Of a stretch of DNA of 64,000 bases, positions 9,174 through 25,589 are shown one piece after another (position 1 is the stretch's first letter; each line of letters opens with the position of its first letter). The DNA lies in the NCBI GenBank assembly GCA_032622095.1, contig CP136061.1, positions 264,772,077 through 264,836,076 on the forward strand, written 5' to 3'. Under the pieces are notes generated by a model, which saw nothing but the letters and a program-made list of their open reading frames with translations, was not told the DNA's origin and did not search any database. The translations under genes and the position numbers were made by a program. This DNA comes from Siphonodentalium dalli (taxonomy: Eukaryota > Mollusca > Scaphopoda > Gadilida > Siphonodentaliidae).

Positions 9174-9547
9174 CATTTTTTCATTACTATTTTAAAGTTT
9201 GTATAATTCTGACCAGAGATGACACATCGACACGAACAGAATCAATTGGTGGGGATCCTACAGTGAAAATGATTTTGTTGAAATTTATCATTTATTTTTC
9301 AAAAACAAGAACAAGAACAATGAACAATAATATATTATTATACATCAATAATATTAACAAAGAACAATAATTTATGTACAAAACAAGGTCTCAGATTTGA
9401 AGAAACTTAATTGAACATCCTACAACATCCTACGCTGAATCAATAACAAAAGAGTCTATTTTGTGGAGTTGTTGACACATTCGTTGTTATCTGGTCGTCG
9501 TCTTCTTTGCGTTGTATGTATATCAGCCGTCGATGTCCTGGTGAAGT
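9174..9547. other. Gene-free AT-rich subterminal region of the Polinton
   Basis: Lies between the left inverted repeat and the protease stop codon. It has A-rich runs (ACAAGAACAAGAACAATGAA near 9307). No coding frame, and no histone-type stem-loop, which matters because four genes at the other end have one. Confidence 0.5.
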
Positions 9548-10021
9548 TTAATTCAACAGCAAATTTGCTTTTCTGTATAATCGACCATAGTGCTTTCCAA
9601 ACCATCGAACTATTGTTCTGTCATTCTTGAAGAAATCCCGAGAATTGAATAATCTTTTCATCCTCTTTCCTTTCATCATGTGGTGGAGTGCGAATATACA
9701 ATATAATCCACACACATTTGTCGCACGATGTTGATATCGTGTTGTATTCATAGTCCATGCTGATGAGTTCCTTTTTATGAATGGTAACATATATCGTCTC
9801 GGTGGTGGTAGTCCAAATGAGTCGAAGTATACAGCTGATCTTCCCTTGAATAACATCAATGTCCAGTGTTCTCCTGGCTGATCCGATGAGTGCGTGTTCA
9901 CAATATATGCTTGAATATGCTGTGGTTTCTTCTCTGGTAACAGATCTCTAGCACAAACATGTGTGTTAAGTTTACACAACCAGGAATTGTCCAGAATATA
10001 TTGAAGTTCAGCTGTCTGCAT
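9548..10021 (-). CDS. PRO: Adenain-like cysteine protease (Polinton PRO)
   Basis: A 157-residue protein of the adenovirus-protease (C5) type, which matures capsid precursors in adenoviruses and is a core Polinton gene. The expected catalytic pattern is present: His52 in GEHWTLMLF, Asp67 in YFDSFG and Cys104 in NVCGLYCIF, with Gln97 upstream of the cysteine as a candidate oxyanion residue. A basic C-terminus follows. The frame is intact, starts at an ATG and overlaps the upstream gene by 14 bp, suggesting a compact late transcription block. Likely substrates are the neighbouring pVI/pX-like and RGG proteins; I infer this only from adenovirus biology. Confidence 0.9.
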   Translation of the reverse strand: MQTAELQYILDNSWLCKLNTHVCARDLLPEKKPQHIQAYIVNTHSSDQPGEHWTLMLFKGRSAVYFDSFGLPPPRRYMLPFIKRNSSAWTMNTTRYQHRATNVCGLYCIFALHHMMKGKRMKRLFNSRDFFKNDRTIVRWFGKHYGRLYRKANLLLN

Positions 10022-10466
10022 CGTTGTAATTCTCTTTGACTCGCTGTGACCACATCAGAGTCCACTCTGCGTCGATTTTTTTGCGGTTGAGCTCCAAACT
10101 GTTTCTCAGATGATCCCACATGATGAATGCTTCGAACTTCTCCTTGCAGTGTGGGTTTAACCATATCAGCTTCGGGAACCATCTTTCCATAACATTGTAT
10201 ATGTCAAGTTTAATCAGCGCTAAGTCGATAAACTGGTTTGTCCAATCATCAGTTGTAGAGAACAAACACAGAACATGTTCACGTTGACTAGGATGTTCTA
10301 TTTTACATCCTTCACAGTTTGCTGACACCTCCTTGCGAATAAGTTCTTGTAGTTCTTCAATCATAGCGTTGTTGAGTGTGTCCAAGATCAGGTTCCATCT
10401 CGGAGCAAAGTTTTGTGAACGTTGGTATTCTTCATAGTAGTTCCATAGCTGTGATGTGAACTCCAT
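10008..10466 (-). CDS. Conserved Polinton protein with a putative Cys/His zinc site
   Basis: An intact 152-residue frame between the major capsid and protease genes. The middle holds CEGCKIEHPSQREHVLC, a C-x2-C-x8-H-x2-C pattern that could bind zinc. I recall similar 'GC...HPSQ..H' proteins in other Polintons and adintoviruses, but I know of no assigned function. It is rich in Trp and acidic helices and has no signal or membrane segment. Its ATG lies 4 bases below the stop of the major capsid frame and it overlaps the protease by 14 bp, so it is probably co-transcribed with the virion genes. Confidence 0.6.
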   Translation of the reverse strand: MEFTSQLWNYYEEYQRSQNFAPRWNLILDTLNNAMIEELQELIRKEVSANCEGCKIEHPSQREHVLCLFSTTDDWTNQFIDLALIKLDIYNVMERWFPKLIWLNPHCKEKFEAFIMWDHLRNSLELNRKKIDAEWTLMWSQRVKENYNDADS

Positions 10467-10467
10467 C

Positions 10468-11772
10468 CTAATAGTCAGTAAGCACTTCTCTCAAAGCTGT
10501 GATCTCTATTTCACTGTCAAATTCAGCATACACCAAAACGTTGACGGCTGTAGTGAGAGCTGTCAAGAATTGAAGCTCCAAACGCAGGTTCCCTGTCTTT
10601 ATAGGATGTAGATGTCCCTCGTCGCTTCCTTGGTCCGGTGTCAAGTCGAAACCCCACAAACAATAACCATTCATATATTCTTTTAAATTAATGCCAATTG
10701 ATTTGTTAACACCAAACATTCCTAAAGATTGATACAAAGATAAATATGATCTGAGACATTGTTTTGTTGCGAAGTTTGGTTCAAATGGACGGTTATGTAT
10801 TGTATGACCGTCTTGACTAACTTCCAATTTATTCAAACTGAAATGTTTGAAGTGGAATGGATTGGTACCCAAATCTCCATTCATATCTTTATTTTCGACC
10901 AACGCAATAAAAACTCTCTTTGGTAATTGTCCTTGAAATAAGTGGTCTTCAATTTTTGATCTAAGTCCAGTACTAATTGTGAAAGTTTTTATTTCTACTC
11001 GTCTGATAGGTATTTTCATTTTTGACTGGACAATTTCTTGATTTAATTTATTTGAGACCGCTGGAAAGAGACTAACTGTTCTGACATGGAACACTGCTGA
11101 TTCGAAAACAATTTGTCCATCCTCGGCGCCAATGAGGCAAAATTTTGATGGTGATCTGTTTAATCTGATACGAATTTCAATTCAGTTTGGTAAATATTTT
11201 TCTTGAAGAAACAGATCAGTGTGTAAGCGTCCACATAGTTCAACAATTTTACTACCACCGATCAAACTTTCTCTAGAAGATAATCCAGCATTAGTACCAC
11301 CTTTGGTACTCTCTTCAAAATGTTCTGCTCTATCGCCATACCACATTTCTAAATTTGCTAATTGATTATCTTTATATTCTGGAGAGTATCCCAACAGATT
11401 TTCGAAATATGCTCGGTATGGGTAAGTGTCAGAATTCGAAGTTATCAATTTGTTGTTCAAGTAAACATCGATACTGCTGAATATACTATGAAAGAAATTG
11501 TTAACAGGTGCTAATTCCGTACCAGCATCCAAATTAGTTCCATCTTTTTTTGTAATTTTGAATTTCACATAAAGATAAGATTGATTAATATCTGTCCACT
11601 TTTCGGTTTGAGATGGTATGACAAACTCTATCGGAGCAGAATTATTCAGCGGTGCAATCGGATGATTTTCGATCCACTGCGATTCTGACATTGTAGCCAC
11701 CGTTGGTGGAACATGTGTTATATCAAGTTCCGATTTATTGCATTCGCATGATCCATTTACCATTTGTGCCAT
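10468..11772 (-). pseudogene. MCP: Major capsid protein (double jelly-roll), interrupted by one in-frame TGA
   Basis: About 434 codons. The first part (11772-11185) has the conserved Polinton capsid features: SESQWIENHPIAPLNNSAPI near the start, IDVYLNNKLI and YPYRAYFENLLGYS. The second part (11181-10468) has FPAVSNKLNQ, FHFKHFSLNKLEV and GFDLTPDQGSDEGHLHPIKT, typical of the second jelly-roll. Both halves are in the same frame and separated only by a TGA at 11182-11184 (minus strand). Everything else is intact, so the lesion looks like a single recent substitution, though a sequencing error or suppressed stop cannot be excluded. The protein family builds the trimeric capsomers of Polinton-type virions. 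Confidence 0.85.
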
Positions 11773-11774
11773 GA

Positions 11775-12149
11775 TTAATCAAAAATATCAAGAGCTCGAC
11801 TGCTAGGATGTTTTTTCGACTGACTTTTTCGGCGTTTGACAGCTGAATGATTCATTTTTGAATTCGCTACTCTTTTTCTAGGTTTTTGTCTCGAGTTCAA
11901 AATTTGATTTTTAGCTTGTGTGCCAAAAGATTTTAAAGCTTTTTTGCCTTCAGACATCAACGCTTCTTTCGGACTTTTACCTTGATTAATAATTTCATCT
12001 GCAACACCAAAAGTGTGTTTTTTCGCAAGTTGTAAAGCTGTCCGACCAATCGGTTTTAGAAATGGTACAGCAGATCTCATAAGTGATTTGAAAATTGAAC
12101 CAATACCGTTACCCTATTGCCGTGGTACACCTCTATACACGGGGAACAT
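11775..12149 (-). pseudogene. pVI/pX-like minor virion protein, interrupted by an early in-frame TAG
   Basis: A long open part starts at 12080 (MRSAVPFLKPIGRTAL), but the same frame continues upstream through a TAG at 12114-12116 to an ATG at 12149 (MFPVYRGVPRQ). That N-terminus and the Gly-rich stretch after the stop match the small Polinton protein usually encoded next to the major capsid gene. Gly-rich sites of this kind resemble adenain cleavage sites. The rest is amphipathic and then very basic (RQKPRKR, KRRKSQSKK), as expected of a membrane-active or DNA-binding core peptide. It ends 2 bp before the capsid ATG. Translation from the internal ATG at 12080 could still give a shortened product. 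Confidence 0.65.
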
Positions 12150-12154
12150 TGTTT

Positions 12155-13006
12155 TTAGAATTCCTCTCGTTTTCTGAAATGCAACTTCGCCAAAGACTTA
12201 CCACCAATAAACTGAATTGATTTTCCTGTGTCGCCACTTATATTTACACTAATTTTGTCAAAGTAAGACTTTGAAACTGGAACATAATGTAAATTTAAAA
12301 ATTCATGTTTTACATGTAATCCGTCGATATCTCTTTTAATTCTGAAAGAAACAACTCGTAAAATTTGTACTTCAACATTTCCAACAATTGTGAAATCGGC
12401 AATATCAGAATAAACAAACATTAGATTATGACCAACATTCATATCTACACCAAACGGAAATCTATTATTTGAATAAAAATCTTCAGAAGCGTTTTCAGTT
12501 TTGTAACCCAACTTGTGCAAAAGACATTGTGGTAATTCAATTCCTAGTTTTGTGTTACTTAAACTCTTGCGAATAATTTTCACACGTTTTGTAACTTTTG
12601 AGTACTTGATGTTAAATCCGTATTCGTTTTGCATTGCTTCTCCAAGTGTTTCATCAATTACATCTTGCATTGTATCAAGTAAATCTGCCGCAGAGGTATA
12701 CGAACCTTTTCGTATCTGTATTTCAAGTGCATGAACGCCATCAGGTCTCGTAAATATCTTTTCTTCAAAACGATTTTTAAGAACAGACAGTATTATGGCA
12801 TCAGTTGTAATCAAATTGAATTTACACGAATCCCCTGAAACATTGTATGTTTCTGAAGGTGTTATCAGTTCGACTAATGCAACTTCCCATTTTTCTTTAT
12901 CAATTTGAATTGGTTTTGGTAATTGTACAGTAAAACAACATTGAGTATTATTTGGATACATTACCATTGAACTGTCGCTCGGAATTGTAATGTAGAAAGA
13001 ATTCAT
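12155..13006 (-). CDS. mCP: Minor capsid (penton) protein, single jelly-roll
   Basis: An intact 283-residue frame. The start, SFYITIPSDSSMVMYPNNTQ, and the following 'LPKPIQIDKEKWEVALVELI' are hallmarks of the Polinton minor capsid protein, the vertex penton homologue. The middle has the expected KRVKIIRKSLSN strand region, and the end keeps the GGKSLAKLHFRK closing motif. The ATG overlaps the preceding stop as ATGA (13003-13006), and the gene lies between the membrane protein and the pVI/pX-like gene. No breaks are visible, so this virion gene is preserved while the major capsid gene is not. Confidence 0.88.
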   Translation of the reverse strand: MNSFYITIPSDSSMVMYPNNTQCCFTVQLPKPIQIDKEKWEVALVELITPSETYNVSGDSCKFNLITTDAIILSVLKNRFEEKIFTRPDGVHALEIQIRKGSYTSAADLLDTMQDVIDETLGEAMQNEYGFNIKYSKVTKRVKIIRKSLSNTKLGIELPQCLLHKLGYKTENASEDFYSNNRFPFGVDMNVGHNLMFVYSDIADFTIVGNVEVQILRVVSFRIKRDIDGLHVKHEFLNLHYVPVSKSYFDKISVNISGDTGKSIQFIGGKSLAKLHFRKREEF

Positions 13007-13266
13007 ACTTTCAAAATTTCTGCCGACTGATTTTTCAAATATTTCAAACGCGGTGTTGGTAAAATGTATCCCAAAGAACTACTGAGTAAAATTAACCACA
13101 GTTCGTTATTTTCACTTTGTAAACTTAAATGAACAATTGCTGTAGCGATTATACCAACAATTATAATAATTTGTGTAAAATATGTTACTTGATTTTTTGC
13201 AATTTTTTCCCCACAGATTTGAAATTGTGATGGAGCATCCAGAACAACTGAACCATTTTGAGACAT
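13003..13266 (-). CDS. Small membrane protein, two hydrophobic segments
   Basis: An 87-residue protein starting MSQNGSVVLDAPSQ at 13266. I chose this ATG because upstream residues in the frame belong to the integrase C-terminus read in another phase. It has hydrophobic stretches at about residues 31-48 (TQIIIIVGIIATAIVHL) and 55-70 (LWLILLSSSLGYILP), suggesting two membrane spans with a short loop. Small membrane proteins in this position accompany the minor capsid gene in Polintons, but I cannot name a function. The ATGA overlap with the minor capsid gene suggests coupled translation or simply tight packing. Confidence 0.6.
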   Translation of the reverse strand: MSQNGSVVLDAPSQFQICGEKIAKNQVTYFTQIIIIVGIIATAIVHLSLQSENNELWLILLSSSLGYILPTPRLKYLKNQSAEILKV

Positions 13267-13276
13267 GTTAAAAGTT

Positions 13277-14356
13277 TTATACCAAATTTGTGTCAAATTT
13301 TTTAGGATAACCAGCCCAATGAACTTTAATTTCTCTAACTGATTTACCAGCAACTTTTCTTGAACGTTTACCAACAACTGATTCAATTTCGTAAACATTA
13401 TTATCTTTTATATGTTGAATTTCTTTACCATAAAATGATCCTGCGATGTTTTCACCATCTAAATCTACTAATTTGTAAGTTAATGGTGTACTTTTACAAA
13501 CTCTACTAATTTTGAAAATTTCTTTTGTCCAATTTGGAAGATTTCCTTTATCAAAAGTTCTCTTTGTTTTATTTATTCTAACAAAATCTCCAACTTTCAA
13601 GATCTTATCTTTTTTCGTTTTTAACTTTCCATAAAGATTTCTGGAAACTTCAATTTCATTTTCTCGAGTTACTAAAACTGGTGCCATCTTAATACTTCTA
13701 TGAAAACTTTTGTTGTAAGAATTCACAAAATCGTGCAAAACATCATTGTATTTCAAAGTTTGATTATGTGTAAAATATTTCCACATCTTTGTTTTCAATG
13801 TCCGTTGAAAACGTTCAACTATACTTGCTTTTGTCTCTGGATTCTCTGTTGTGAAAAAATGAATTTTCTTAGATTTCAAAAATTGTAAAAATAATTTATT
13901 TTTGAATTCTGAACCTTTGTCAGATTGAAATGAAACAGGTTTTCGTTTTGATGATTTGAGAATTTTCTGAAATGTTTTAACTAAAGTTTTACCAGTTTTG
14001 TCTTTAATTTTTTCAACCCATGCAAATTTTGAGAAAACATCAATAACACAAAGTAAATATCTGTAATTGTCATTGTGCTTTTGCAAAGTTTGCAAATCTG
14101 CCAAATCAGCTTGCCACTGAATATCAATTCCTGCAACAATAGTTTTACGTCTGCGAAATTTCCGAACAATTGGTTTGTGCAAAGTATATGTTTTTTGCCA
14201 TTGTAACCAGTTTTTAACATCTGAAAGTTTAATTTTGTTATTTGTTTCTTTCGCATTTTTAAAAAGTTGATTTGCTCCACTGAAACCACCAACTTCTTTT
14301 GGATTGTAGTAAATTTCAGTTAGAAGTTTGTCAAATTTTATGTAAGTGGGGACCAT
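13277..14356 (-). CDS. INT: Retroviral-type integrase with C-terminal chromodomain-like region
   Basis: A 359-residue integrase that would join element ends to host DNA and produce the 6-bp duplication seen at this locus. An N-terminal helical region (NQLFKNAKE, VKNWLQWQKTY) is followed by the RNase H-fold core: the first Asp in QADLADLQ, YLLCVIDVFSKFAWV, the second Asp in FQSDKGSEFKN, and the Glu in TKASIVERFQRTLK about 35 residues on, giving a complete D,D-35-E set. NSYNKSFHRSI and an SH3-like VGDFVRINKTK segment follow. The C-terminus (YEIESVVG...VHWAGYPKKF) resembles a chromodomain, as in many Polinton integrases. The frame is intact. It overlaps the upstream gene by 19 bp. Confidence 0.92.
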   Translation of the reverse strand: MVPTYIKFDKLLTEIYYNPKEVGGFSGANQLFKNAKETNNKIKLSDVKNWLQWQKTYTLHKPIVRKFRRRKTIVAGIDIQWQADLADLQTLQKHNDNYRYLLCVIDVFSKFAWVEKIKDKTGKTLVKTFQKILKSSKRKPVSFQSDKGSEFKNKLFLQFLKSKKIHFFTTENPETKASIVERFQRTLKTKMWKYFTHNQTLKYNDVLHDFVNSYNKSFHRSIKMAPVLVTRENEIEVSRNLYGKLKTKKDKILKVGDFVRINKTKRTFDKGNLPNWTKEIFKISRVCKSTPLTYKLVDLDGENIAGSFYGKEIQHIKDNNVYEIESVVGKRSRKVAGKSVREIKVHWAGYPKKFDTNLV

Positions 14357-15059
14357 TCTTTCAAAATAGATTTTCTGGTTTTAGGACAACTTTGAGGTGT
14401 GAAAATATCAACTGAACGTTTTCTTGACTTGCCACTGCTAGGAGTTGCATGAGGTGTATGAAACTCATCACCAGTGTGACCTTCTTTTAAATGTCTTTGT
14501 ATCCACAACCATCGATTCCTGTTACCTACATAATCTTGTGGTACATTAAGTTCTCCCAATCCACGTAGGAATGTTTCATAACCAACTGGGTCAAAACCTT
14601 TTCGGTGACGAACAACATCGTTTATCAAATCAATTATATTTGATCCAGTAACTGTTTCTGTTCCATAAATTAATTGTCCACGATCATCCCATCTAAGTTT
14701 AGGATTAGTTGACAACAATGTTAAAATTTGTTGTGCTTTACCACGAAGTTTAGATGGCACACTTTCCAATATATGTTCACTCATGTTCCCAAAGTTTTCA
14801 GATAACTTTTGTTCAGGTAAACTGAATTTTGAATTTAAAGATTTTTGTGAAGTTTTCAATTTGTACAAATTCTCTCCAAATAACTGTGACTTTTCTGATT
14901 CAGAAATATTTTTATCATAAACTGATTTCAATTCTTGTAAGAATCTGAAACATTTGAAATTGCAGGATCAGGAGGTAATTGAGGTTTATTCATTTCTGAC
15001 ATTTTCCATTGTTTGAAATCTTCCAACATTCTGAATGGTACAATAACCATTTTCTTCAT
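14338..15059 (-). pseudogene. Conserved Polinton protein of unknown function, split by one frameshift
   Basis: The main frame (14931-14338) contains LSTNPKLRWDDRGQLIYG, GSNIIDLINDVVRHRKG and NRWLWIQRHL, motifs I associate with an uncharacterised protein present in many Polintons and adintoviruses just upstream of the integrase. It has no proper ATG. A second frame starts MKKMVIVPF at 15059, which is the usual N-terminus of the family, and ends at a stop near 14937. A single-base shift near 14935-14950 therefore explains the two pieces. The C-terminus is basic and Ser/Thr/Pro-rich. The stop of the next upstream gene is only 3 bp away. Confidence 0.6.
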
Positions 15060-15061
15060 AT

Positions 15062-15442
15062 TTATTTGAGATATAGTTTGTACAAAATATTGTTAACAAC
15101 TGCACCTAATGTTTTGCTAATCAATGGAGCAAGAAATAATAATGGTAAAAAGCCACCTTTTTGATTCCAAATTTTCTTCTTTTGTTGCAAAGGTTTGTTC
15201 TTGTCTGCAAGATATCTGATATGTTTACGCTTCGAATGTAACTTGCGGTTCTGAGCTTCATTCAGTTTTACATTACCTTTTAAAAGATTTTGACAACATT
15301 CTGAAATGCAATCCATCACTTGTTTCGGAGCATCGTTGATCATTTTCTTTTTATATGCAGATGGAACTTTACTCATTGCAACAATCAACTCACCATATTT
15401 TTTTATCAGCGGTGCTTTCCTGCTCTTAGTTTTTGAAGGCAT
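15062..15442 (-). CDS. Small basic protein with a hydrophobic C-terminus ('QKGGFLP' type)
   Basis: 126 residues from the ATG at 15442. Lysine-rich throughout (KTKSRKAPLIKK, HSKRKHIRYLADK, QQKKKIWNQ), then KGGFLPLLFLAPLISKTLG, a hydrophobic tail of about 25 residues. I recall the order 'LLxGNVxL...KLxxKxxxIRxLADxx...KKKxxNQKGGFLPLLL' from many animal Polintons and adintoviruses, where such proteins are thought to be pVI/pX-like virion components. That role is unproven. The adjacent gene 15499-16086 carries a similar 'KxKLILQRGGxGFLGG' motif, so the two may be paralogues. Intact. Confidence 0.65.
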   Translation of the reverse strand: MPSKTKSRKAPLIKKYGELIVAMSKVPSAYKKKMINDAPKQVMDCISECCQNLLKGNVKLNEAQNRKLHSKRKHIRYLADKNKPLQQKKKIWNQKGGFLPLLFLAPLISKTLGAVVNNILYKLYLK

Positions 15443-15498
15443 CTTCACAGTCTAAGTAGTTGTCTCAAAATGAGCAGAAAAATTATATGTTTCATCTT

Positions 15499-16086
15499 TT
15501 ATCTTTTCTGATTGAACCATTCTAAAGCTTCGAATGCAGATTTCGATGCATCAGACAACGGCATAAATTTTGAATATTCAAGATCAATAACTGGTTTTTT
15601 TTGTAACGGTTGATGTTGAGGGTTCTGCTGAGAAGGTATAGGTGTAAATTTAGAATGTTGATTTTGTTGAGTTTGCATCGGTGTAAACTTTGAATGATTT
15701 AGAGAAAGTTTTGTTTTACGTTTAGATTCTTTTTGACTACCCCTTTGTTGTGTTTGCATCCGTGTAATCTTTGAACGTTTTGGAGAAACCTTTGATTTAC
15801 TTTTAGATTGTCTACCAGTTTGTTCAAATGAATTTTTCAAAAGTCTTCTAATTAAAACACCTCCAAGGAACCCACTACCACCTCGTTGTAAAATTAATTT
15901 GCGTTTTGTTTCCATATCAGTTGATCGATCAGAGATTTTTTTAAGAACATTTTTATTTCTCTGAAAAAACTTTTTTGTCTGTGATGGTAATTTCCAATCA
16001 TTTTCAAGAAATAATTCAGCTGCAAAAGTGAAGAAATTTATAATTTGTGACAGTTCATCATGACTAAACATCTCGGTGGACGACAT
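15499..16086 (-). CDS. Basic 'QRGG' protein with a repeated SKFTPMQTQQ tail
   Basis: 195 residues from MSSTEMFSHDE at 16086, preferred over an earlier in-frame codon because the upstream bases lie in the ATPase gene. Residues about 60-85 read TKRKLILQRGGSGFLGGVLI, the same arrangement as the KGGFLP protein next door: a basic stretch, then (Q)RGG, then a Gly-rich hydrophobic segment. After that come short imperfect repeats, SKITRMQTQQ, SKFTPMQTQQ, SKFTPIPSQQ and SKFMPLS, in a Lys/Gln-rich context. No catalytic motif. It is likely a virion-associated or DNA-binding protein by composition and position; I cannot be more specific. Confidence 0.55.
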   Translation of the reverse strand: MSSTEMFSHDELSQIINFFTFAAELFLENDWKLPSQTKKFFQRNKNVLKKISDRSTDMETKRKLILQRGGSGFLGGVLIRRLLKNSFEQTGRQSKSKSKVSPKRSKITRMQTQQRGSQKESKRKTKLSLNHSKFTPMQTQQNQHSKFTPIPSQQNPQHQPLQKKPVIDLEYSKFMPLSDASKSAFEALEWFNQKR

Positions 16087-16120
16087 GGTTCTAAAATGAA
16101 AAAAGTAACAACAACTGAAT

Positions 16121-16771
16121 TTATACTTTTGAATAAATGACAGGACCTCGGTCATTAGCTGTCAACCATTTATGGAAAATATCAGTTCTAATTCGCAAAT
16201 AATTTTCTGTTCTAGGATGAAAATCTACTAAAATATATCCATGATTTATTGAAGTTGCATCTTCGTATGCTTGTTTCAAATGATTGGTTTGCATTTGATA
16301 AGCCAAAACTTTTATTTGATTTTTATCTCGAACGCTTTGAAATAAAACCATGTAGTGTGCATTCAAAATTATAGTTCTGCTACTTTTCGATTTTTGGAAC
16401 ATGTTTTGAGTAATGTAAATTATTGAAGCATTTCGATGGTGACCTTTTCTAGTAAACCAAAGCATTATTTTGTCTTCATCTTGTTCCCCCATCATGTCAT
16501 CGAAAACAACAAGATGAGGAAATGATTTATCTGATACAATTTCCTCATCATCGTCTGGAATGCCATCGATAAACTCAACGTTATCAATTTCTTTTATACG
16601 ATTGTATGTGTCTTGCCATTCTTTGTAACACCAAACTATTTTCTTTGGTGGTGTTTGGAATAAATCGTGTTTAAATTCAATAACTTTTTTAACAAATTCT
16701 GTTTTACCTGATCCACTAGGTCCGCTGATAAAGAAATTACACGGATGTTGGAAAAGTAAAGATTCTTCCAT
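16121..16771 (-). CDS. ATPase: FtsK/HerA-type genome-packaging ATPase
   Basis: An intact 216-residue ATPase that in related viruses drives DNA into the capsid. Walker A is GPSGSGKT at residues 17-24; Walker B is LVVFDDMM at about 87-94, followed by WFTRKGHHRNASIIYITQN, the sensor-type stretch typical of Polinton and poxvirus A32-like ATPases. The short length is usual for Polintons. It lies between the unknown gene 16805-17446 and the QRGG protein, with about 35 bp on each side. No breaks. Confidence 0.92.
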   Translation of the reverse strand: MEESLLFQHPCNFFISGPSGSGKTEFVKKVIEFKHDLFQTPPKKIVWCYKEWQDTYNRIKEIDNVEFIDGIPDDDEEIVSDKSFPHLVVFDDMMGEQDEDKIMLWFTRKGHHRNASIIYITQNMFQKSKSSRTIILNAHYMVLFQSVRDKNQIKVLAYQMQTNHLKQAYEDATSINHGYILVDFHPRTENYLRIRTDIFHKWLTANDRGPVIYSKV

Positions 16772-16804
16772 GTTGTCACTTTGATGCCTAATCAGAGAGT
16801 GAAC

Positions 16805-17446
16805 TTAACGACGTGTGAATTTAGTTTTTAAAGAGAAATCTCCAAAGCTGTTAATATTTCCAAACATTTCAATAATCCAAGTATTATAGTCTTCTATTCT
16901 TCTGTTTGTTCTGTAAATAAAAAAATCATTTCCTATAATGTTTTTAATTTTTGCATATGTTGACATTTTTTTTGTTAACAAATACCCATAGATCCTAGGA
17001 ACTGATTTAAAGGTTCCACTAGCAAGAGGATAATTATCTTCATACTTTGTATAATGAATATAGTCATGTTCATCAAAAGTGTCTAAATCTAAATGGTGTT
17101 CATCACCACCAAATATCCAAAAATCAGATATTCTTTCAATGAGAAAAAATGTTTTGAATTTAATAAATGATTTAATATATTTTTGAGAGAAATGAGAAAA
17201 TATACTTGTCTCAAGATAGTCCAATCTCTGTAAACATTCGTCGACATCACAGCATCGTAGTATTGCTTTCTTTTCTCTTTCAAACCAGACTTCTTGTAAT
17301 TCCTTCTTTATCTCTGGAATAAGTGTTGACTGTGCCACCAAATATCCATAAATCTTCTCAGCAATTTCTGGAGGTACTACGCCTGTCAACATCTTGACAT
17401 GAAATGACTCAACATCTCCATCCGTATGGATATGTGTGAATACCAT
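16805..17446 (-). CDS. Unknown Polinton protein downstream of the polymerase
   Basis: An intact frame of about 213 residues if translation begins at the ATG at 17446 (MVFTHIHTDGDVESFHVKML). The frame is open up to 17500, but that part overlaps the polymerase C-terminus in another phase. Features: VVPPEIAEKIYGYLVAQ, a Cys pair in RCCDVDECLQRLDYLE, and a long hydrophilic middle. There is no membrane segment and no nucleotide-binding motif. I do not recognise it. Its position directly after the polymerase and before the ATPase, with a 38-bp overlap, suggests it belongs to the replication/packaging side of the block. Confidence 0.5.
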   Translation of the reverse strand: MVFTHIHTDGDVESFHVKMLTGVVPPEIAEKIYGYLVAQSTLIPEIKKELQEVWFEREKKAILRCCDVDECLQRLDYLETSIFSHFSQKYIKSFIKFKTFFLIERISDFWIFGGDEHHLDLDTFDEHDYIHYTKYEDNYPLASGTFKSVPRIYGYLLTKKMSTYAKIKNIIGNDFFIYRTNRRIEDYNTWIIEMFGNINSFGDFSLKTKFTRR

Positions 17447-20400
17447 TGACGAGTTTTCGTTTTGTGTACACCGATCTGAAAGTTTTGGTTTGACACTCAC
17501 TAATCAGTTGATGGTCCTTTTGTCTTTTAATTCTGGAAGGATACTCAACAACCGTTTTGAAATTTTCACGATCATTAACACATTGTACCATTGTTTCAAA
17601 ATTAACTTTTTGACTTGTGCTGTAATCAAGAGTGATACCTTTTACCTTACATTTGGTGTATCTTCTCCCATCTTTGATGTATTCATATCCGTAGTTCTTT
17701 GGCCCAAGTCCAACAAATTTGACAATCTTTGCATCTGGATGTTCGTCGCTCCATTTCCCCAATCTTCCTTCGATAGTTTTGATGTTCTTCTTTGATGGAT
17801 CACTGACATACATACAGCTGTCTGTATCAAAATACAACACTCTATCTCCAAGTTTTTTAAAAACTTTATACAATTGTAATCTTGCATACGCTGTAACAAA
17901 AGAAGCAACAACAACATTTGCTGAATGATGAGGTTCAATATTATCTAAAATATCAACATAATTTACCAGAATGAATTTGTCACCATCAAGAAGTGTAACA
18001 TTTGGAACAATTATATTGTTACTAGTAAGCAATTCAAAATAACGTGATGGCTTATCCACATACTCTGTTTTTGACATAAGATTTCTTTGTGCATCCTTAC
18101 CCCATATACAATTAATCATAATTTTAGATATTTGGCGTTTTCCTGGATTCTTCTCGATGTTCTCCAATTTTATACCCTCAGCTGCATAATAATCCTGTAC
18201 AAACTTTTGCTTCTGTTCTTCTGTCTCAACACCAAATGGATAACCACTACATTCCTGTTTGATCTTTAGATGTTTGTCGATATAGGATTTGTATATTTCA
18301 TCTGTCCAATCTGTCCAATGCCAAATTTGGTACACATCAAGTATTTTGTAGCCAACATTCATTGCTTTGAATAATTCTGGCGTGGTCCACACTCCGGTTA
18401 TAGCTCGATCTTCTTCTGAATGGTTACATGTCTCGTCCTCATTGACGGCACAAGTGTTGCACAAAGTAAAAACCATTTTCTTGTTACAATGAATCGGTAG
18501 AACTGGAATATGCAATTTCGATGGTGGTAAAATTGTACATTTAACAAGGCCTGCATAGTCTCTAATGTGTTCTTGATCGATCTGCTCTTGGCTCAAAATT
18601 TCTGGATGTCCAACAGGGTAGAATTTATATTTGTTGCAATATCGATACAACGAACACACATCGATGAACTTGATTTCTTTTGTGGAATCTTGATCAATTT
18701 CCTCGTACAATTTGATGGCATTTGTACGTCCACCAAACAATGCTTCTCTTGGCAAAATGGGGTCTCGATGTTTGTAGAAAGATTCCATTTGTTGTTTGAA
18801 TTTCACATCCGATTTCAATCTTTCGTCGATCTGATGCTCCCAAATTGATTCAACTCTGTAACCAAGACTTTCCAGTTCATCTTTCTTCTGTTGAGTTCTT
18901 GTATATAATTCTTCCATGGTGAGCATCGTATAGGGATTCTTGTATTGTCTGTTGTTGTAACATTTTGGACATCCATGAAACAGACATCCATTCATCTCAA
19001 AAACTGTTCTTGTGGCTTCCTCATATCCATCGACGTAGTGTCCACCAATCTTGATTTCTCCTCCATTCAAAGCATGCTTGATTGTTATCATACGTGACAA
19101 TGATAGATGTTGAAGCCAACGTATCGCTTTCATGGAATAGTTTTTAGCACATGGGTATCCACCATCTGGAATGATTCCGATTGTTTTCTCTGGCATTGAA
19201 TTCTTCCTCCATGCCAAATTGCAAACTTGCGCCAATGTTATTGACTAAATGAACGGGTCAATCTGTTCTGTTTCCAATATGTATTTCCTGAAATTTCCAC
19301 ATCCACGGCGAAGAATATCCACGTCTGATTTGCAGTACTTCTCCATCTCTTCTTGGAAGTTGAATATCACGTAATTTTCTATTTTCTCATTGTACCATTC
19401 AAAGAATTTCTCTCGATTTTCCACGCTCATCATGTCTGGTTTGTAGTAATCAGAAGACAAGTAAGGTCCAATGTAATTTTGAAACTTTGGTGAATTCGCC
19501 CAATGTGGAAAGTGTCCTTTCGCCATCTCATTCAGCTGAAAAGTTTGTGGAAACTTTGAAAGCGGCATCATCAGAAAACTCAGAGAATCAATAACTTTCA
19601 CGCTGTTGCATTTTAAACTGAGAATTTTGTTTCCATTCATGATCAGTTCTGGTTTATGAATTCCACTTTGTATGAGTGCTTGAAGTAGAAACTGTGCATC
19701 GTATCCCTGAGCATTGTGTGCTATTGCAACACATCCTTTGTGATCTTGGTGGAATAACCAGTTTGTGAAGTCTGTTAAAACGTTGTCACCCTTGAATACA
19801 AATTCTCTGGAATCCGGTCCGCATGTTTCACATTTTTCTTCGATTGGTTTGCACATGCAATCTCCACAAGCGGTATGTGCAACACAGAAGTTTGGAATAT
19901 GAACACCTGTGTCTTGTCTGCATTCAAAGTCAAAGAATACATATGGAATCTTTGCAGGTTTCTTTTCCGGTGATTCATATTTTGGAATGTAGCACCTGTG
20001 ATCTGCTTCAACGATTTCTTTGCAATGTTTGCATTTCTTCAACCCCGCACATATATGTCTGTTTGATTTATTGATGAGAATTTCTTCATCACAATTGTTG
20101 CATAGTTGAACCAAATCACATATTTTTCTTTTCTGTTTTCCTTCCGTCTTCAAATGGTTGTCGAAACAAGATTTACTTCTGAATGATCGTCGACATGTTC
20201 TACACTTCACCAAATTTGTGAAATTACACTGTGTCAATGACCAGCATGCACAAACAAAACTGCATCGATGATCGCCACGACTTTTGAATCCAATGTCACA
20301 TAATTCACAGTAGTAGTTGGTGCCTAGAAATCCTTTGATTGATGTTATGGTGTCGAAGTGATTGTTGTTGTAGTAGATGTGTACACATTTGCTCTCCGAA

Positions 20401-21481
20401 CACATTTCTGCAGGTTCAAATAGAAATCCAGCGCCAGCAAATTCATTGTGAATTTTCACAACATATTCTGGATACAATATTTCTTGAATCTTGTGGAACT
20501 CATTGATACTGCAAACTGTATCGTGTGGAATGCCAGCACGGTTGGGTAGATTTTTGCTGCATCTGTTTGTGCTGTGTATATTGATTGCCTTATTCTTTTC
20601 CATTTCTTTGATCAGCACGCAGATCCATCACTATCTGCCTTACACATTCCGACGACAATAGATCTTGCCATACACATAACATCATCAGCATTTTCAATCC
20701 GGACAATACTTCTTTTTACTTTTGTCAACTTGTTCTTGTCTGCAAATGGTCCATAATGTAGTGAGTGTCGTGTACCACCTTCCGGAATATCTGTAACGAA
20801 GATTTCGAAATTGAGTGCACCGTCATGAATTGTAAAGTCTGCATTTGATTGAACCACATTTTGAATATTATCCATGAGTGTCCCACCATTCAATTCACTG
20901 GCTTTTGTGAATGGAATGAAAATGCTCATATCAAGTCCTGGATGATTTATCGTAACTCTGATTCTTGTCTTCTCATTTGCTGAACATTTCTGTTTCAATT
21001 CTTCTGTCAACTTCTCAAATATCTCGGTAATGTTCTCGATTGGATCTGTAAATTTCTCGAATTTCATACCAAATTGTCGTGATGCTGATTTAAATTTTCT
21101 GGAAAATTTCTCCGAGTTCAGCTCCAATTTGAAATATTTTGTCGGATTGAACACAACATGCTCTCTAGCCAGACTTCTCTTTCTCTTCCCACCAATTTCT
21201 CTATTCTGTCTTCGACCGCGTCCAATCTGCCCATCACTAGAACTTTCTTCACTTTCTCCCCCATCAGTTTCCATATCGCTCTCTTCACTTTCTGCCTCAT
21301 CAGTTTCCATATCGCTCTCTTCACTTTCTGCCTCATCAGTTTCCATATCGCTCTCTTTACTTTCTGCCCCATCAGTTTCCATATCGCTCTCTTCAATAAC
21401 TGCAAGCCTTGGTCTTTTTCTAACAATATCTTCTTCGCTGGTGGCGTCGTCTGAAACAGGTCTTTTAATTCTCTTAAACAT
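17409..21481 (-). pseudogene. pPolB: Family B DNA polymerase (protein-primed type), broken by one frameshift and one in-frame TAG
   Basis: Three adjoining open pieces together cover a Polinton polymerase of roughly 1,350 residues. 21481-20612: acidic repeat region, then the conserved N-terminal domain (RITRVTINH-type strand, ENADDVMCMARSIVV). 20618-19248: Cys/His-rich zinc-finger-like region, then 3'-5' exonuclease with FFDFECR (Exo I), IAHNAQGYDAQF (Exo II) and YCKSDVDILRRG (Exo III). 19244-17409: palm and thumb with VCSLYRYC (motif A), KIMINCIWGKDAQR (motif B) and LYFDTDSCMYV (motif C). Pieces 1 and 2 differ by one frame near 20615. Pieces 2 and 3 share a frame, separated only by a TAG at 19245-19247. 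All catalytic motifs are visible, so loss of function looks recent. Confidence 0.88.
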
Positions 21482-21781
21482 TTTTGTCTTGAGTTTTGTC
21501 AGCAAAAAATATTGCGACTGGCTTCTTCGGAGTTGAAGTGTAAAGTGTAGAATTACACCTGCTTTTATAGCTTTTATAGCATTCGCGATGAAATTGCTAT
21601 AAAAGCAGGTGTAATTCTACACTTTACACTTCAACTCCGAAGAAGCCAGTCGCAATATTTTTTGCTGACAAAACTCAAGACAAAAATGTTTAAGAGAATT
21701 AAAAGACCTGTTTCAGACGACGCCACCAGCGAAGAAGATATTGTTAGAAAAAGACCAAGGCCTGCAGTTATTGAAGAGAGC
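21386..21781. promoter_or_regulatory. Inverted-repeat bidirectional promoter and shared 5' coding region
   Basis: Arms 21386-21571 and 21596-21781 (186 bp each) are inverse copies with about one mismatch (CTTGC against CCTGC) around a 24-bp loop. Each arm holds the 5' leader and the first 34 codons (ATG at 21481 on minus, 21686 on plus), so polymerase and zinc-knuckle proteins both begin MFKRIKRPVSDD. The loop-proximal part (CTATAAAAGCAGG) contains a TATA-like TATAAAAG in both directions, about 80 bp from each ATG. This looks like a symmetrical divergent promoter that gives the two genes the same control and the same N-terminal tag. Confidence 0.75.
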
Positions 21782-22285
21782 TATATTGAGCTACATAAAG
21801 AAGATTCAAAAAAATCGACACAACCACAGACTAGAAAAATTCAAGATAATCTTGTCGAAATGAGACAGATCTCTACCAATTTGTTTAAACTTTGTAACAA
21901 AATGCAATGGCAAGAGAAACAAGAGAAAAACAAAGCTGATAAAAATTGGAAACCGCCATATGGTTACTGTTACAAATGCGAACAAGAATCCCATTGGTCC
22001 TTCCATTGTAAAACAGATTTCGGCGACAAAAAAAATGTGAAAACTATACAAAAGTCTACAAGTAGTAACAATACAAGAACAAATGCAGATATCAAAACTG
22101 AAGAGATGCCTACAACATCAGATTTTTCCAAACAAGACCGACCTGTTGATCCTACGAATGATTCACAGAACAAAGCTGAAGATAAACATCCATAAATTGA
22201 AAATTCCAAGAAAACTTCCAAGAAAAAGAATCTGAGACCATTCTACATTCCAAAAACAGATAAACGAATCGACACAAACAATTGA
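21686..22285 (+). pseudogene. CCHC zinc-knuckle protein divergent from the polymerase, with an in-frame TAA near its end
   Basis: The open frame from ATG 21686 runs to a TAA at 22193-22195. The same frame then continues for 29 codons (RPFYIPKTDKRID near its end) to a TGA at 22283. The first 34 residues are shared with the polymerase through the inverted repeat. The middle carries a zinc knuckle, CYKCEQESHWSFHC (C-x2-C-x4-H-x4-C), as in nucleic-acid-binding Gag proteins. The rest is hydrophilic and Lys/Thr/Asn-rich. A poly(A) signal AATAAA follows at 22301. The role is probably nucleic-acid binding. The early TAA may be a recent mutation or the true end. Confidence 0.6.
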
Positions 22286-22306: not shown

Positions 22307-22373
22307 TTATGAATTGAACAATCGTGTTTTGTTTTTTCAGCTATGAAAGAGTAACCTTTTGGGAAATGTGGGT

Positions 22374-22389
22374 GGCCCTGAAAAGGGCC
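22374..22389 (-). terminator. Histone-type mRNA 3' stem-loop (gene 22409-22759)
   Basis: On the minus strand: AAAAC, then GGCCCTTTTCAGGGCC, then ACCCAC. The stem of 6 bp, the TTTC loop, the A-rich 5' flank and the ACC 3' flank match the metazoan histone 3' stem-loop bound by SLBP. It starts 19 nt after the stop codon. Confidence 0.8.
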
Positions 22390-22408
22390 GTTTTCTCTTT
22401 TCCAGGAT

Positions 22409-22759
22409 TCATATGAACTCTGACAAATCAGGATATATCCCGTTGGGATTAATTGTCACAGACCAAGTAGGATTTGATCTGTGCGCCGCACCAGCCTGGG
22501 CAAAGCTGTCAATCGCTGCATTGCACAGATCTTTCTTCTTGATCTGTGACAAGATCTCCACGAGATCAAGATTGCTTGATTCTTGATCACATACTTTAGG
22601 TAATGGTCGCCGGCGAGCCAAAAAATCTCTTAGCATCTGCTTCTGAACTATCTTTTGTTCAGGAGAATCCTGCCATTTCCTATATCTTTTTATTTCCGTC
22701 TCCTCTGACGAATCTCTCTTCCTCCACAACTTCTTGATAAATTTCTTTAAAGATGGCAT
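22409..22759 (-). CDS. Unknown basic 116-residue protein of divergent module A
   Basis: An intact frame from ATG at 22757-22759. The start is strongly basic (MPSLKKFIKKLWRKRDSS), followed by KRYRKWQDSPEQKIVQKQML and DFLARRRPLPKV, then a less charged end (ILSQIKKKDLCNAAIDSFAQ). I do not recognise a domain; small basic proteins starting this way occur near Polinton ends. Its promoter region is shared with the plus-strand gene 23373-23549, and its 3' end is a histone-type stem-loop in place of an obvious poly(A) signal. Confidence 0.55.
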   Translation of the reverse strand: MPSLKKFIKKLWRKRDSSEETEIKRYRKWQDSPEQKIVQKQMLRDFLARRRPLPKVCDQESSNLDLVEILSQIKKKDLCNAAIDSFAQAGAAHRSNPTWSVTINPNGIYPDLSEFI

Positions 22760-22784
22760 AATGAATGAAGTTCACTGAAAAAGT

Positions 22785-22876
22785 GAAAATATTTGTATAC
22801 ATTTGACACGGGCGACAATGAAATCACATAATACTTTGGCGTTAAAATTGACAAATATTTCCTGACGTTGTGTTTT
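22785..22876 (-). promoter_or_regulatory. Module A promoter repeat, minus-strand side
   Basis: The run from GAAAATATTTGTATACATTT through CGGGCGACAATGAAAT to TTTCCTGACGTTGTGTTTT is repeated at 24386-24477 (same orientation) and in part at 23252-23319 (inverted). It starts about 25 bp upstream of the ATG of 22409-22759. The position and repetition point to a shared promoter; ATTTGTATACAT or AATACTTTGG could be core elements, but I cannot tell which. Confidence 0.55.
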
Positions 22877-23251
22877 TTCAGAACCGGATCACCATGCATA
22901 TTTTTCTTAATCATTATTGCATAGCGATCAAACAAATGTTTTTAATTTCGTTAGATCATTATCTATTATTTGGTACACATGATTGATATATTTATTACCT
23001 CGTTAGGCAAATATGGAATGTTTTTCTAGTTTTTGGTTTTGGAATTGTACATATTTTATACATAAAAACTGAACACAAGAAACATACTGAACATTTTTCT
23101 TGATCATTGCATTTGATAACTTTACTTGGTCATCGTTTATGAACGAAGATGAATTCATATGTTAAAACATCTTAATTAATTGTATATACTATCATGAATT
23201 TAATCTATAACATATCGAAATGGTGAAACTAACAGATACTGCACTGAAAAG
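22877..23251. other. Gene-free spacer of module A
   Basis: AT-rich sequence between the two inverted promoter copies of module A. No open frame or repeat is recognised. Module B has no such spacer, so it was either inserted here or lost there. Confidence 0.5.
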
Positions 23252-23372
23252 AAACACAACGTCAGGAAATATTTGTCAATTTTAACGCCAAAGTATTATG
23301 TGATTTCATTGTCGCCCGCGCAATCGTGATACAAGTTCAAGACGGATCTTCAGACTTATTCTACATTCAAAG
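23252..23372 (+). promoter_or_regulatory. Module A promoter repeat and leader, plus-strand side
   Basis: An inverse copy of the 22785-22876 repeat (AAACACAACGTCAGGAAATA through TTTCATTGTCGCCCG), followed by a leader, CGCAATCGTGATACAAGTTC to CTACATTCAAAG, that ends at the ATG at 23373. The leader recurs almost identically before the ATG at 24555, which marks both as transcript starts of sister genes. Confidence 0.6.
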
Positions 23373-23549
23373 ATGACTGCAATACCCGAACCCTTGATGG
23401 CGATACTGAGAGGAAGTAGGGGGCTAACACCGCAGATAATGTGGGACAGGCACGCAAGAGAATTGACCGCGCGTTCAAAGCTTATCGTGCAAAAAAGAAC
23501 AGCGGGGGGACAAAAGCAAACTTCGCACTCTGAGAAAAATGGGGAGTGA
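23373..23549 (+). CDS. Short 58-residue gene of module A, followed by histone-type stem-loops
   Basis: The ATG at 23373 follows the duplicated leader and begins MTA, as does the sister gene at 24555 (MTAV). The product is short and basic (RHARELTARSKLIVQKRTAG) and ends at TGA 23547. No domain is recognised. It may be the truncated remnant of a longer gene, since the sister is 108 residues to its first stop. The support for a real gene is the conserved leader upstream and a stem-loop exactly 20 nt after the stop. Confidence 0.5.
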   Translation: MTAIPEPLMAILRGSRGLTPQIMWDRHARELTARSKLIVQKRTAGGQKQTSHSEKNGE

Positions 23550-23569
23550 ATTTTGATGGCGTACAAAAC

Positions 23570-23612
23570 GGCCCTTTTCAGTGCCAAAACAAAAACGGTC
23601 CTTTTCAGGACC
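23570..23612 (+). terminator. Tandem histone-type stem-loops (gene 23373-23549)
   Basis: The first, 23570-23585, is GGCCCTTTTCAGTGCC, with one stem mismatch. The second, 23597-23612, is GGTCCTTTTCAGGACC, a perfect 6-bp stem with TTTC loop. Both are preceded by AAAAC or AAAAAC. The perfect second copy may compensate for the mismatched first. Confidence 0.75.
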
Positions 23613-23745
23613 AACCAATTTTTTCAAAAAGAAAAACTTTTAGTATTGCTTAAGAACTAATAATGTTCCTTGTACCCTATGTTTCGTTTTGAAAAAATCA
23701 CGCCACGAATAATTTAAAAACAAAATATACTTGCAAATATTTGTT

Positions 23746-23843
23746 GTTGAATAAATTATGAATTGAACAATCGTGTTTTGTTTTTTTCAGCTATGAAAGA
23801 GTAACCTTTTGGGACATGTGTGTGGCCCTGAAAAGGGCCGTTT
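23746..23843. repeat. 97-bp direct repeat, copy 2
   Basis: Second copy of 22297-22393. It holds the plus-strand AATAAA (23750) and the minus-strand stem-loop of gene 23862-24348. Confidence 0.8.
23824..23839 (-). terminator. Histone-type mRNA 3' stem-loop (gene 23862-24348)
   Basis: On the minus strand AAAAC precedes GGCCCTTTTCAGGGCC and ACAC follows. It is identical to the stem-loop at 22374-22389 and begins 22 nt after the stop codon at 23862-23864. Confidence 0.8.
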
Positions 23844-23861
23844 TAAAATTAACATCTGACT

Positions 23862-24348
23862 TTAACACCGTTTTGTGTTTTTCTTATATCTTAACATATC
23901 TTTCCCATGAGAACCGAGAGCTTTTGCAAATTCATCACTTTTCTCTGTATCTCTAGATTCTTTACAAGGAAGATGAAATCTGACTTTTGTCTCAGTAGAA
24001 GCCTTCATGATACTCTTAGTTTGTTTTTCTTTCATCGCCGATAATTTTCCTTTTTTGATCTGTTTCTGCTCTTTCGATCTCTCAACATCATGAACCCTGA
24101 TTGGGATATCTATCTGTTCTGCAACGAAACGAAGATTCACTTTCACTTCTTGATGCGTTACTTGCGTTTTCACGTCAATATCCCTGCGAAGGCATCTCAG
24201 TTCATCTAAAATCGCTTTTAAAATGAGTGTATCACCACCTATAGTCATTGTCGTATTAGCTTGGACCGATGACTGGCGCAGCATATGTATTCTGTGCAAC
24301 AGGACTACTGTATATCTCACTCTGAAGAAATTCTGTTAACGGATCCAT
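23862..24348 (-). pseudogene. Unknown coiled-coil-like protein of module B, probably one frameshift
   Basis: The main frame (to 24246, MTIGGDTLILKAILDEL) predicts a helical region LKAILDELRCLRRDIDVK with heptad-like leucines, then a Lys-rich part (KEQKQIKKGKLSAMKEKQTK) and a Cys-terminal tail. A second frame begins at an ATG at 24348 (MDPLTEFLQSEIYSSPV) and ends about 24256-24260, suggesting a single-base shift there. The ATG at 24348 sits about 40 bp below the promoter repeat, as its counterpart does in module A. I do not recognise the family. Confidence 0.5.
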
Positions 24349-24385
24349 CTCTTGATAGCAATGCAATGTAAGGTTGATCAAATTC

Positions 24386-24554
24386 GAAAATATTTGTATA
24401 CATTTGACACGGGCGACAATGAAATCACATAATACTTTGGCGTTAAAATTGACAAATATTTCCTGACGTTGTGTTTTATATTTTATTTCATTGTCGCCCG
24501 CGCAATCGTGATATATGTTCAAGACGGATCTTCAGACTTATTCTACATTCAAAG
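24386..24554. promoter_or_regulatory. Bidirectional promoter of module B
   Basis: 24386-24477 repeats the module A promoter sequence, and 24485-24554 repeats the plus-strand leader up to the ATG. The complementary words CGGGCGACAATGAAAT (24410) and ATTTCATTGTCGCCCG (24486) flank the core, so the region is itself an inverted repeat with about 60 bp between them. Minus-strand gene 23862-24348 and plus-strand gene 24555-25019 both start from it. Confidence 0.6.
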
Positions 24555-25019
24555 ATGACTGCTGTAAACATAACAGATCTTGACGAGATAATGGGCGGTG
24601 GGGTATACTGTAAAGCAGTGTACGGTGAAGAAATATCGCTATTTTGGAGGGCACTCAGCCTTGGGATTTACGGGACGACCGATGGATGGATGATACTGAG
24701 AGATGCGGCAGTTGACCTGTACTACACAGAGAGTGACGAACTTGGTGCGTCGGCACAAGATTTACGGCGCACACCACTTTTGGCCGAATCAAGATTGATG
24801 GTTGAATTAGCGGCGACTGTTATACAGCGACCTATTGTCATGTTTGATGCTACCAAAGGCGGCTACAAATCAACACCATGATTCAAGTCATCAATACCTC
24901 TAGTGTGGATCCCCCACGTTTGCCATGAGCATTATTGTGAATGCGAAATATGGATGAGGAGGGGAGCCAAATCAATTGAAGTTTTGGCGAACAAAGAAGT
25001 TCAATGTGGCGGATTCTAA
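24555..25019 (+). pseudogene. OTU-protease-like gene of module B with an in-frame TGA
   Basis: From the ATG at 24555 the frame runs 108 codons to TGA 24879-24881, and then stays open to TAA 25017. The segment GGGVYCKAVYGEEISLFWRA then LSLGIYGT resembles the OTU motif around the catalytic cysteine ('GDGxCLFRALS..LYGT'), but a Ser occupies the Cys position. QRPIVMFDATKGG fits the central strand. After the stop, WIPHVCHEHYCECE supplies a candidate catalytic His. OTU proteases remove ubiquitin; here the Cys change and the stop both argue against activity. The assignment is tentative. The histone-type stem-loop lies 19 nt after the distal stop, which supports the longer frame as ancestral. Confidence 0.45.
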
Positions 25020-25038
25020 ACTATAACAAAAATAAAAC

Positions 25039-25054
25039 GGCCCTTTTCAGGGCC
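25039..25054 (+). terminator. Histone-type mRNA 3' stem-loop (gene 24555-25019)
   Basis: AAAAC, GGCCCTTTTCAGGGCC, ACCAAA: a perfect 6-bp stem with TTTC loop and canonical flanks, 19 nt after the TAA at 25017. Confidence 0.8.
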
Positions 25055-25131
25055 ACCAAATGATCGAAAAGATACTCTTGATAGCTAATTGATATTTTCC
25101 AAAGTGAGATTTTCCTTTTGAAAAAAATAAT

Positions 25132-25589
25132 TCTAAGTCCATTTTCATTTTTTCGATCAGAAATGTCACATCAATGACAGGAACATCTATCCTCAGGGGG
25201 TAACTATGGTCCAGTACCCCCAGTGGGGGCCACTATGGCCCAGTACCCCCCAGTGGGGGCCACTATGGCCCAGTACCCCCCAGTGGGGGCCACTATGGCC
25301 CAGTACCCCCCAGTGGGGGCCACTATGACCCAGTACCCCCCAGTGGGGGCCACTATGGCCCAGTATCGAATACTGGACCATCTATGGTCCTAGATGGTCC
25401 AGTATTCGATACTGGGCCATAGTGGCCCCCACTGGGGGGTACTGGGCCATAGTGGCCCCCACTGGGTGGTACTGGGCCATAGTGGCCCCCACTGGGGGGT
25501 ACTGGGCCATATTGGCCCCCACTGGGGGGTACTGGGCCATAGTGGCCCCCACTGGGGGGTACTGGGCCATAGTGGCCCCCATTACTACT
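25132..25589. repeat. Right terminal inverted repeat of the Polinton
   Basis: Inverse of the left repeat, 458 bp against 309 bp. The difference is in the 30-bp tandem units: about six on each side of the central palindrome near 25384 (GGACCATCTATGGTCCTAGA), against four and three on the left. The unique inner part (complement of GAAAATGGACTTAGA) and the tip ATTACTACT match. The unequal copy number shows that the arrays change independently. Confidence 0.85.

Follow-up and report, generated by a model that had tools for sequence, protein, structure and literature searches.

Histone-type mRNA 3' stem-loops follow four small genes of a Polinton in the genome of the scaphopod Siphonodentalium dalli

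To our knowledge, 3' ends of the histone type are seen as a near-exclusive feature of replication-dependent histone genes. Metazoan histone mRNAs are described in PMC12775136 as a unique class without poly(A), and PMC9756948 gives the stem-loop and the histone downstream element (HDE) as required for cleavage without polyadenylation, which proceeds via SLBP and the U7 small nuclear ribonucleoprotein (snRNP). In the bivalve Lucina pectinata, all histone mRNAs are reported to carry stem-loops and some to carry purine-rich elements (PMC6210712). No precedent for such ends in a Polinton was found among the titles and opening parts of abstracts listed in the open-licence literature on histone stem-loops and Polintons, adintoviruses, viruses or transposons. 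Here we describe stem-loops of this type behind four small genes, A to D, at one end of a Polinton of S. dalli. The window, meaning the whole stretch of DNA analysed, comprises 64 000 nucleotides (nt) (C1:264772077-264836076) of a 2.23 Gb genome, and the analysis covered this one host genome, with copies at 11 loci examined in detail. We consider it probable that genes A to D carry a captured host histone 3' end, through which host SLBP and U7 snRNP produce S-phase mRNAs without poly(A).

At the right end of the Polinton, the four genes are arranged divergently in pairs, A(-)/B(+) and C(-)/D(+). Gene A (22409..22759, minus strand) encodes 116 amino acids (aa). Gene B (23373..23549, plus strand) encodes 58 aa and gene C (23862..24284, minus strand) 140 aa in the window; in other copies they reach 97 and 180 aa, respectively. 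Gene D (24555..25019, plus strand) has an in-frame stop at 24879-24881 in the window copy and is open over 154-180 aa in eight other copies; the stop preceding its stem is at 25017-25019. Stem-loops were scored with Rfam cmscan against Histone3 (RF00032; gathering score 34 bits). The stem-loop of gene A lies at 22350..22394 on the minus strand (stem 22374-22389; 40.8 bits; 19 nt past the stop), that of gene C at 23800..23844 on the minus strand (stem 23824-23839; 37.8 bits; 22 nt past the stop) and that of gene D at 25034..25079 on the plus strand (stem 25039-25054; 37.8 bits; 19 nt past the stop). Gene B is followed by two on the plus strand: the first (23570..23585), 20 nt past the stop, has one broken pair in the window (AGTGCC) and was unreported by Rfam, and the second (23592..23638; stem 23597-23612), 47 nt past the stop, is intact and scored 37.1 bits. 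All five are on the coding strand of their gene. The stem coordinates and the strands are those given by the initial annotation, which had been made from the letters of the window; all five elements exist and four of them exceed the gathering score, the broken pair at 23570-23585 being the qualification. The distances that it gave, 19, 20, 22 and 19 nt past four stops, also hold, except that gene D has its earlier in-frame stop in this copy.

With up to three mismatches allowed, the 24-mer AAAACGGCCCTTTTCAGGGCCACC was found five times in the window and never in 100 shuffles; this absence and the Rfam scores rule out chance hairpins. The signal is confined to genes A to D, as a histone stem-loop within 300 nt past the stop was present in none of the 17 other ORFs (open reading frames) of the Polinton (16 core ORFs and the ORF at 21686..22195). 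At the level of sequence, the identification of the A to D stem-loops as histone-type 3' processing signals is supported.

Genome-wide, 75 Histone3 candidates were scored, and all of them exceeded the cut-off. Two regions, C5 111.4-111.7 Mb and C8 156.3-156.9 Mb, hold 63 of these 75 hits, and the other 12 are spread over 11 further loci, each carrying genes of the same Polinton. Only one of 14 control genomes gave a Histone3 match, and that match was below the cut-off. The host histone regions were sampled as three 10-kb stretches (L021-L023), the ORFs of which include H2A and H2B (core-histone or H2A Pfam matches over the cut-off) and H4 (recognised by sequence, its Pfam core-histone match being below the cut-off). 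Host H2A, H2B and H4 genes have exactly the 16-mer of the A, C and D stem-loops, theirs lying 29-35 nt past the stop, and the second stem of gene B differs from the host 16-mer by a paired C-G to U-A change. The likeness to the host continues beyond the hairpin in gene B, where, of the 42 nt that follow the stem-loop, 33 are identical in an ungapped comparison with host H2B (0 of 2000 dinucleotide shuffles as good). In the copy at L013, comparison of the downstream stretches with the best host gene gave 0 (B), 0 (D) and 8 (C) of 2000 shuffles as good. The proposal of the initial annotation that these are histone-type 3' ends is borne out by the 16-mer shared with host histones, by the homology of the gene B downstream stretch to H2B and by retention at 11 loci. 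Two stretches of the host genome also match the RNA-binding domain of SLBP. They lie on one strand 3.8 kb apart, an arrangement that would suit two exons of a single gene, and the weaker match contains a stop.

A hairpin acting at the DNA level, in replication, packaging or recombination of the Polinton, would suit a DNA element in which the hairpins cluster near one terminal repeat. However, all of the hairpins are gene-oriented and none was found at the opposite end of the Polinton in the window, the loop and the AAAAC flank also fit the RNA family, and the gene B match runs on into the histone downstream element. We regard a DNA-level role as extremely unlikely.

Conservation was determined from alignments with 11 rows per gene (the window and copies from L010-L020), from which matches shorter than 200 bases were excluded. 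The matches removed in this way were those of the truncated gene A of L011 and L012, genes B and C of L015 and gene D of L018. All six pairs are kept, some by G-U wobble, in 50 of the 55 stem-loops. The broken stems are the first of gene B in the window and in L020, the second of gene B in L014, that of gene C in L016 and that of gene D in L020. All three broken stems of gene B adjoin an intact partner, and its first stem is intact in most other copies. The distance from stop to stem is 19 nt for A (18 in one copy), 20 nt for B, 22 nt for C and 19 nt for D (20 in one copy). Related Polintons without the stem-loop at the orthologous genes had been named in advance as grounds for refuting a histone-type end; the near copies at the 11 loci carry it. 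Among copies, the mean pairwise difference was 0.015 over the stem-loop and its 5' flank; it was 0.038 over the 57 nt that follow the stem-loop, and fourfold sites gave 0.063. By permutation, with columns that are non-independent, the stem-loop and 5' flank were less variable than fourfold sites (p 0.002) and than the downstream stretch (p 0.03), and a count of variable columns set the stem-loop apart from the 15 nt upstream (p 0.045).

Several observations weigh against a functional, host-derived processing signal. The window downstream stretches of genes A and D are only marginally similar to the best host gene (62 and 66 of 2000 shuffles as good), and that of gene C in the window (382 of 2000) and that of gene A in L013 (428 of 2000) are not above chance. 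We judge from these comparisons that homology to a host HDE is clear in gene B and likely in D; in C it is uncertain, and in A it is weak. Two of the broken stems, C in L016 and D in L020, belong to genes with a single stem-loop. The stop is uncertain from a competing frame for gene B in L013, L014 and L017-L019, and from a disrupted frame for gene A in L019 and genes A and C in L020. Counts of variable columns in the stem-loop (8 of 105) and downstream (26 of 200) do not differ significantly (p 0.18). AATAAA occurs 200 nt past the stop of gene B and just upstream of the gene D stem-loop, and poly(A) ends are therefore possible for these two genes. Finally, in two further Polinton families of the same genome, the 8 kb upstream of PolB in one copy each gave no Histone3 match at E<=1. 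The initial annotation had proposed a Histone3 search in other Polintons, and with these two families, one copy and one flank each, generality to Polintons is unsupported.

Some of these points would be expected if the stem-loops were passive leftovers, that is, a captured histone fragment spread by duplication and genome amplification, behind which the mRNAs are polyadenylated further downstream. The two AATAAA motifs suit this account, as does the failure of the variable-column count to set the stem-loop apart from the stretch downstream. So do the related 3' regions: in the window, A and C have 115 nt in common (94% identity) and C and D 57 nt (84%), and in several other copies B and D have 56-57 nt in common (80-82%). 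The stem-loops of genes A to D are accordingly not four independent gains, because they are partly derived from one another by duplication. The copies are also young, with a fourfold difference of 0.063, and much of their identity is merely inherited. On the other side, in most of the copies examined each of the four genes has a stem 18-22 nt past its stop, the stem-loop varies less than fourfold sites, and A, C and D have one 16-mer in common despite differing flanks. Broken stems in gene B always adjoin an intact partner, and neither AATAAA nor ATTAAA occurs within 300 nt past the stops of genes A and C in the window. Passive leftovers are in our assessment unlikely. For the origin of the signal itself, we infer that a host histone 3' end was captured and then duplicated within the Polinton.

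The 21-mer AAAACGGYCCTTTTCAGGRCC has 2236 occurrences in the genome and the reversed pattern has none; the count includes some host histone genes, because H2A has an identical 21-mer. The first 100 of the 2236 places, all on C1 below 64.3 Mb, were classed by spacing and formed 35 clusters. Of these, 12 contain all five stem-loops with order and spacing retained, eight contain two to four stem-loops and 15 are single. This suggests, by proportion, about 450 clusters with two or more stem-loops genome-wide. The 2236 exact 21-mers may be set against at least 63 Histone3 hits (of 75 scored) in the two host regions, a ratio that would favour the stem-loops as decoys for SLBP and U7, disturbing host histone mRNA processing and, for example, slowing chromatin assembly on Polinton DNA. 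Decoys would, however, have no need for placement 19-22 nt past stop codons, and we hold this explanation to be very unlikely.

If genes A to D instead use the stem-loop as a processing signal, host SLBP would bind it, U7 snRNP would base-pair with the putative downstream element and the histone cleavage complex would cut a few nt 3' of the stem. The resulting mRNAs would end at the stem-loop without poly(A), building up in S phase and decaying once replication stops. Genes A to D, with their divergent promoters, probably give early or regulatory proteins, and these products would be confined to replicating cells; PolB, the integrase, the ATPase and the other core genes would not use the histone signal.

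The promoters of the two divergent pairs are built from repeated modules. The module of gene A (22785..22876, minus strand) comprises 92 nt identical to the module of gene C (direct repeat D4, inverted repeat I18), which is located within the short stretch between genes C and D (24386..24477, minus strand; repeats D4 and I19). The module of gene B is at 23249..23372 on the plus strand (repeats I18, I19 and D5), and the stretch upstream of gene D (24479..24554, plus strand) is common with that upstream of gene B (direct repeat D5, 95%). The motif TTTGGCGT is present at three physical promoter sites (that of A, that of B and a third in the stretch that separates C from D) and is one letter off what we take to be the E2F consensus. 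A second motif, TATACAAA, lies 40 nt (A) and 52 nt (C) upstream of the ATG. Comparison of the A to D promoters with the upstream stretches of three host histone genes gave no similarity. The E2F-like reading of the promoters is a weak lead, because the promoter modules are duplicates. A broader proposal, on which we are evenly divided, is that the right end forms a complete replication-coupled module in which E2F-like divergent promoters and four histone-ended genes would supply early proteins only during host DNA copying; with up to about 2200 signals, the Polinton would then be the most numerous holder of the histone 3' end code.

Genes A, C and D look to be under constraint, the ratio of nonsynonymous to synonymous substitution rates (dN/dS) being 0.30, 0.52 and 0.41 over 8, 7 and 8 open copies, respectively. 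Gene A is an orphan: for A and D, no Pfam family and no protein relatives at E 0.001 in a large protein database were found. Gene B likewise has no Pfam family, and the Pfam matches of gene C were all under their cut-offs. Gene D had by eye been taken as OTU-like; this was dropped, as Pfam and PDB sequence searches were empty and the predicted model had a mean predicted local distance difference test score (pLDDT) of 38. Gene B is the most divergent of the four. Relative to the window copy, its coding part is 61-76% identical in nine of ten rows and 94% in the tenth, its 3' end 97-98% and the stretch beyond 91-99%. This combination of a coding part that varies among copies and a conserved downstream flank points to possible rapid evolution.

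We identify the element between the terminal inverted repeats at 8865-9181 and 25125-25589 as a Polinton on the basis of its gene content and ends. The left repeat (8865..9181, plus strand) is made of 30-bp units and pairs in inverted orientation with the right repeat (25125..25589, minus strand) in overlapping pieces of 77-100% identity. Within the repeats (8873-9109 and 25224-25581), the component 30-bp units are themselves in inverted orientation. Core genes occupy 9548..21481 on the minus strand (16 ORFs) and comprise a candidate protease, an rve integrase, an A32-type ATPase, PolB in two ORFs and unassigned ORFs. Pfam matches were rve at 2.1e-12, Pox_A32 at 6.7e-9 (over its cut-off) and DNA_pol_B_2 at 1.2e-22 and 4.9e-13; the adenovirus-type protease is a candidate, with Peptidase_C5 at 5.6e-4 and 20.1 bits, under the curated cut-off of 21.3. 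For the double jelly-roll major capsid and the minor capsid genes, Pfam alone gave none in the ORFs at 10468-11019, 11182-11772 and 12155-13006. The ORF at 21686..22195 on the plus strand has a zinc-knuckle match under the Pfam cut-off, no stem-loop and an AATAAA 105 nt past its stop. It shares a near-identical start with the ORF at 20612-21481 through a 194-nt inverted duplication, 98% complementary, at 21378-21571 and 21596-21789. The Polinton is flanked by ORFs at 25799-28736 that by eye resemble a long interspersed nuclear element (LINE) endonuclease and reverse transcriptase.

Relatives of the PolB protein were numerous. The best 120 of 702 include Mercenaria proteins (52-56% identity over 57-72% of the query), oyster proteins and a coral adintovirus (41%), and the closest among these 120 is a metagenome-derived protein (58%). 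One relative (49%) is filed under the symbiont genome Candidatus Thiodiazotropha taylori, presumably as contamination from what we take to be its clam host. In viral contigs, a single-protein PolB query gave none and an alignment query 36 weak loci; the bacterial genome collection gave one relative (L090). The pattern GGYYCTTHTCAGRRCC was found in none of the loci of PolB relatives (L054-L090). When viral contigs were scanned once for a histone stem-loop pattern, only one contig matched; its ORFs are phage-like by eye, and Rfam scored nothing in it at gathering thresholds. General viral use of the histone stem-loop was rejected on this lone match.

The two further, diverged Polinton families of the S. 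dalli genome (L091, L092) have many open copies. Their PolB ORFs measure about 950 and 1310 aa, and the protein is 37-41% and 28-33% identical to PolB of the Polinton with genes A to D. For the first of them, two more PolB copies (C1 20.41 and 39.10 Mb) had no 21-mer within 1 Mb among the matches listed. Four of the single 21-mer places belong to another repeat, which forms tandem units about 5.6 kb long at C1:64.26-64.28 Mb. It carries the identical stem-loop at L093:2033-2048 and L094:4446-4461, 25 nt past the end of an open frame that has 119 codons, counted from stop to stop, and no Pfam match. Its stretch downstream of the stem-loop is H4-like, and a piece that by eye is a Penelope-like reverse transcriptase was not confirmed by Pfam.

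If the proposed use of the signal is correct, a whole mRNA-ending pathway has been transferred to a mobile DNA element, and genes A to D show how such an element can couple gene expression to host S phase. In practice, RNA-seq that selects for poly(A) could miss the transcripts of such genes.

Compared with known systems, the element shares with Polintons/Mavericks and adintoviruses PolB, the rve integrase, the A32-type ATPase, terminal inverted repeats and, as a candidate below the Pfam cut-off, an adenovirus-like protease. It differs from the other Polinton families of the same genome in its histone-type 3' ends, which are without counterpart in one sampled copy of each family, on one flank. 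With the 3' end of replication-dependent histone mRNAs (RF00032), genes A to D have in common the 6-bp stem, the UUUC loop, the AAAAC 5' flank and the short distance from the stop. They differ from it in being four orphan genes of a mobile element rather than histones, known from sequence alone, and in the tandem pair of stem-loops carried by gene B, the gene in which the likeness to the histone 3' end extends to a purine-rich downstream element.

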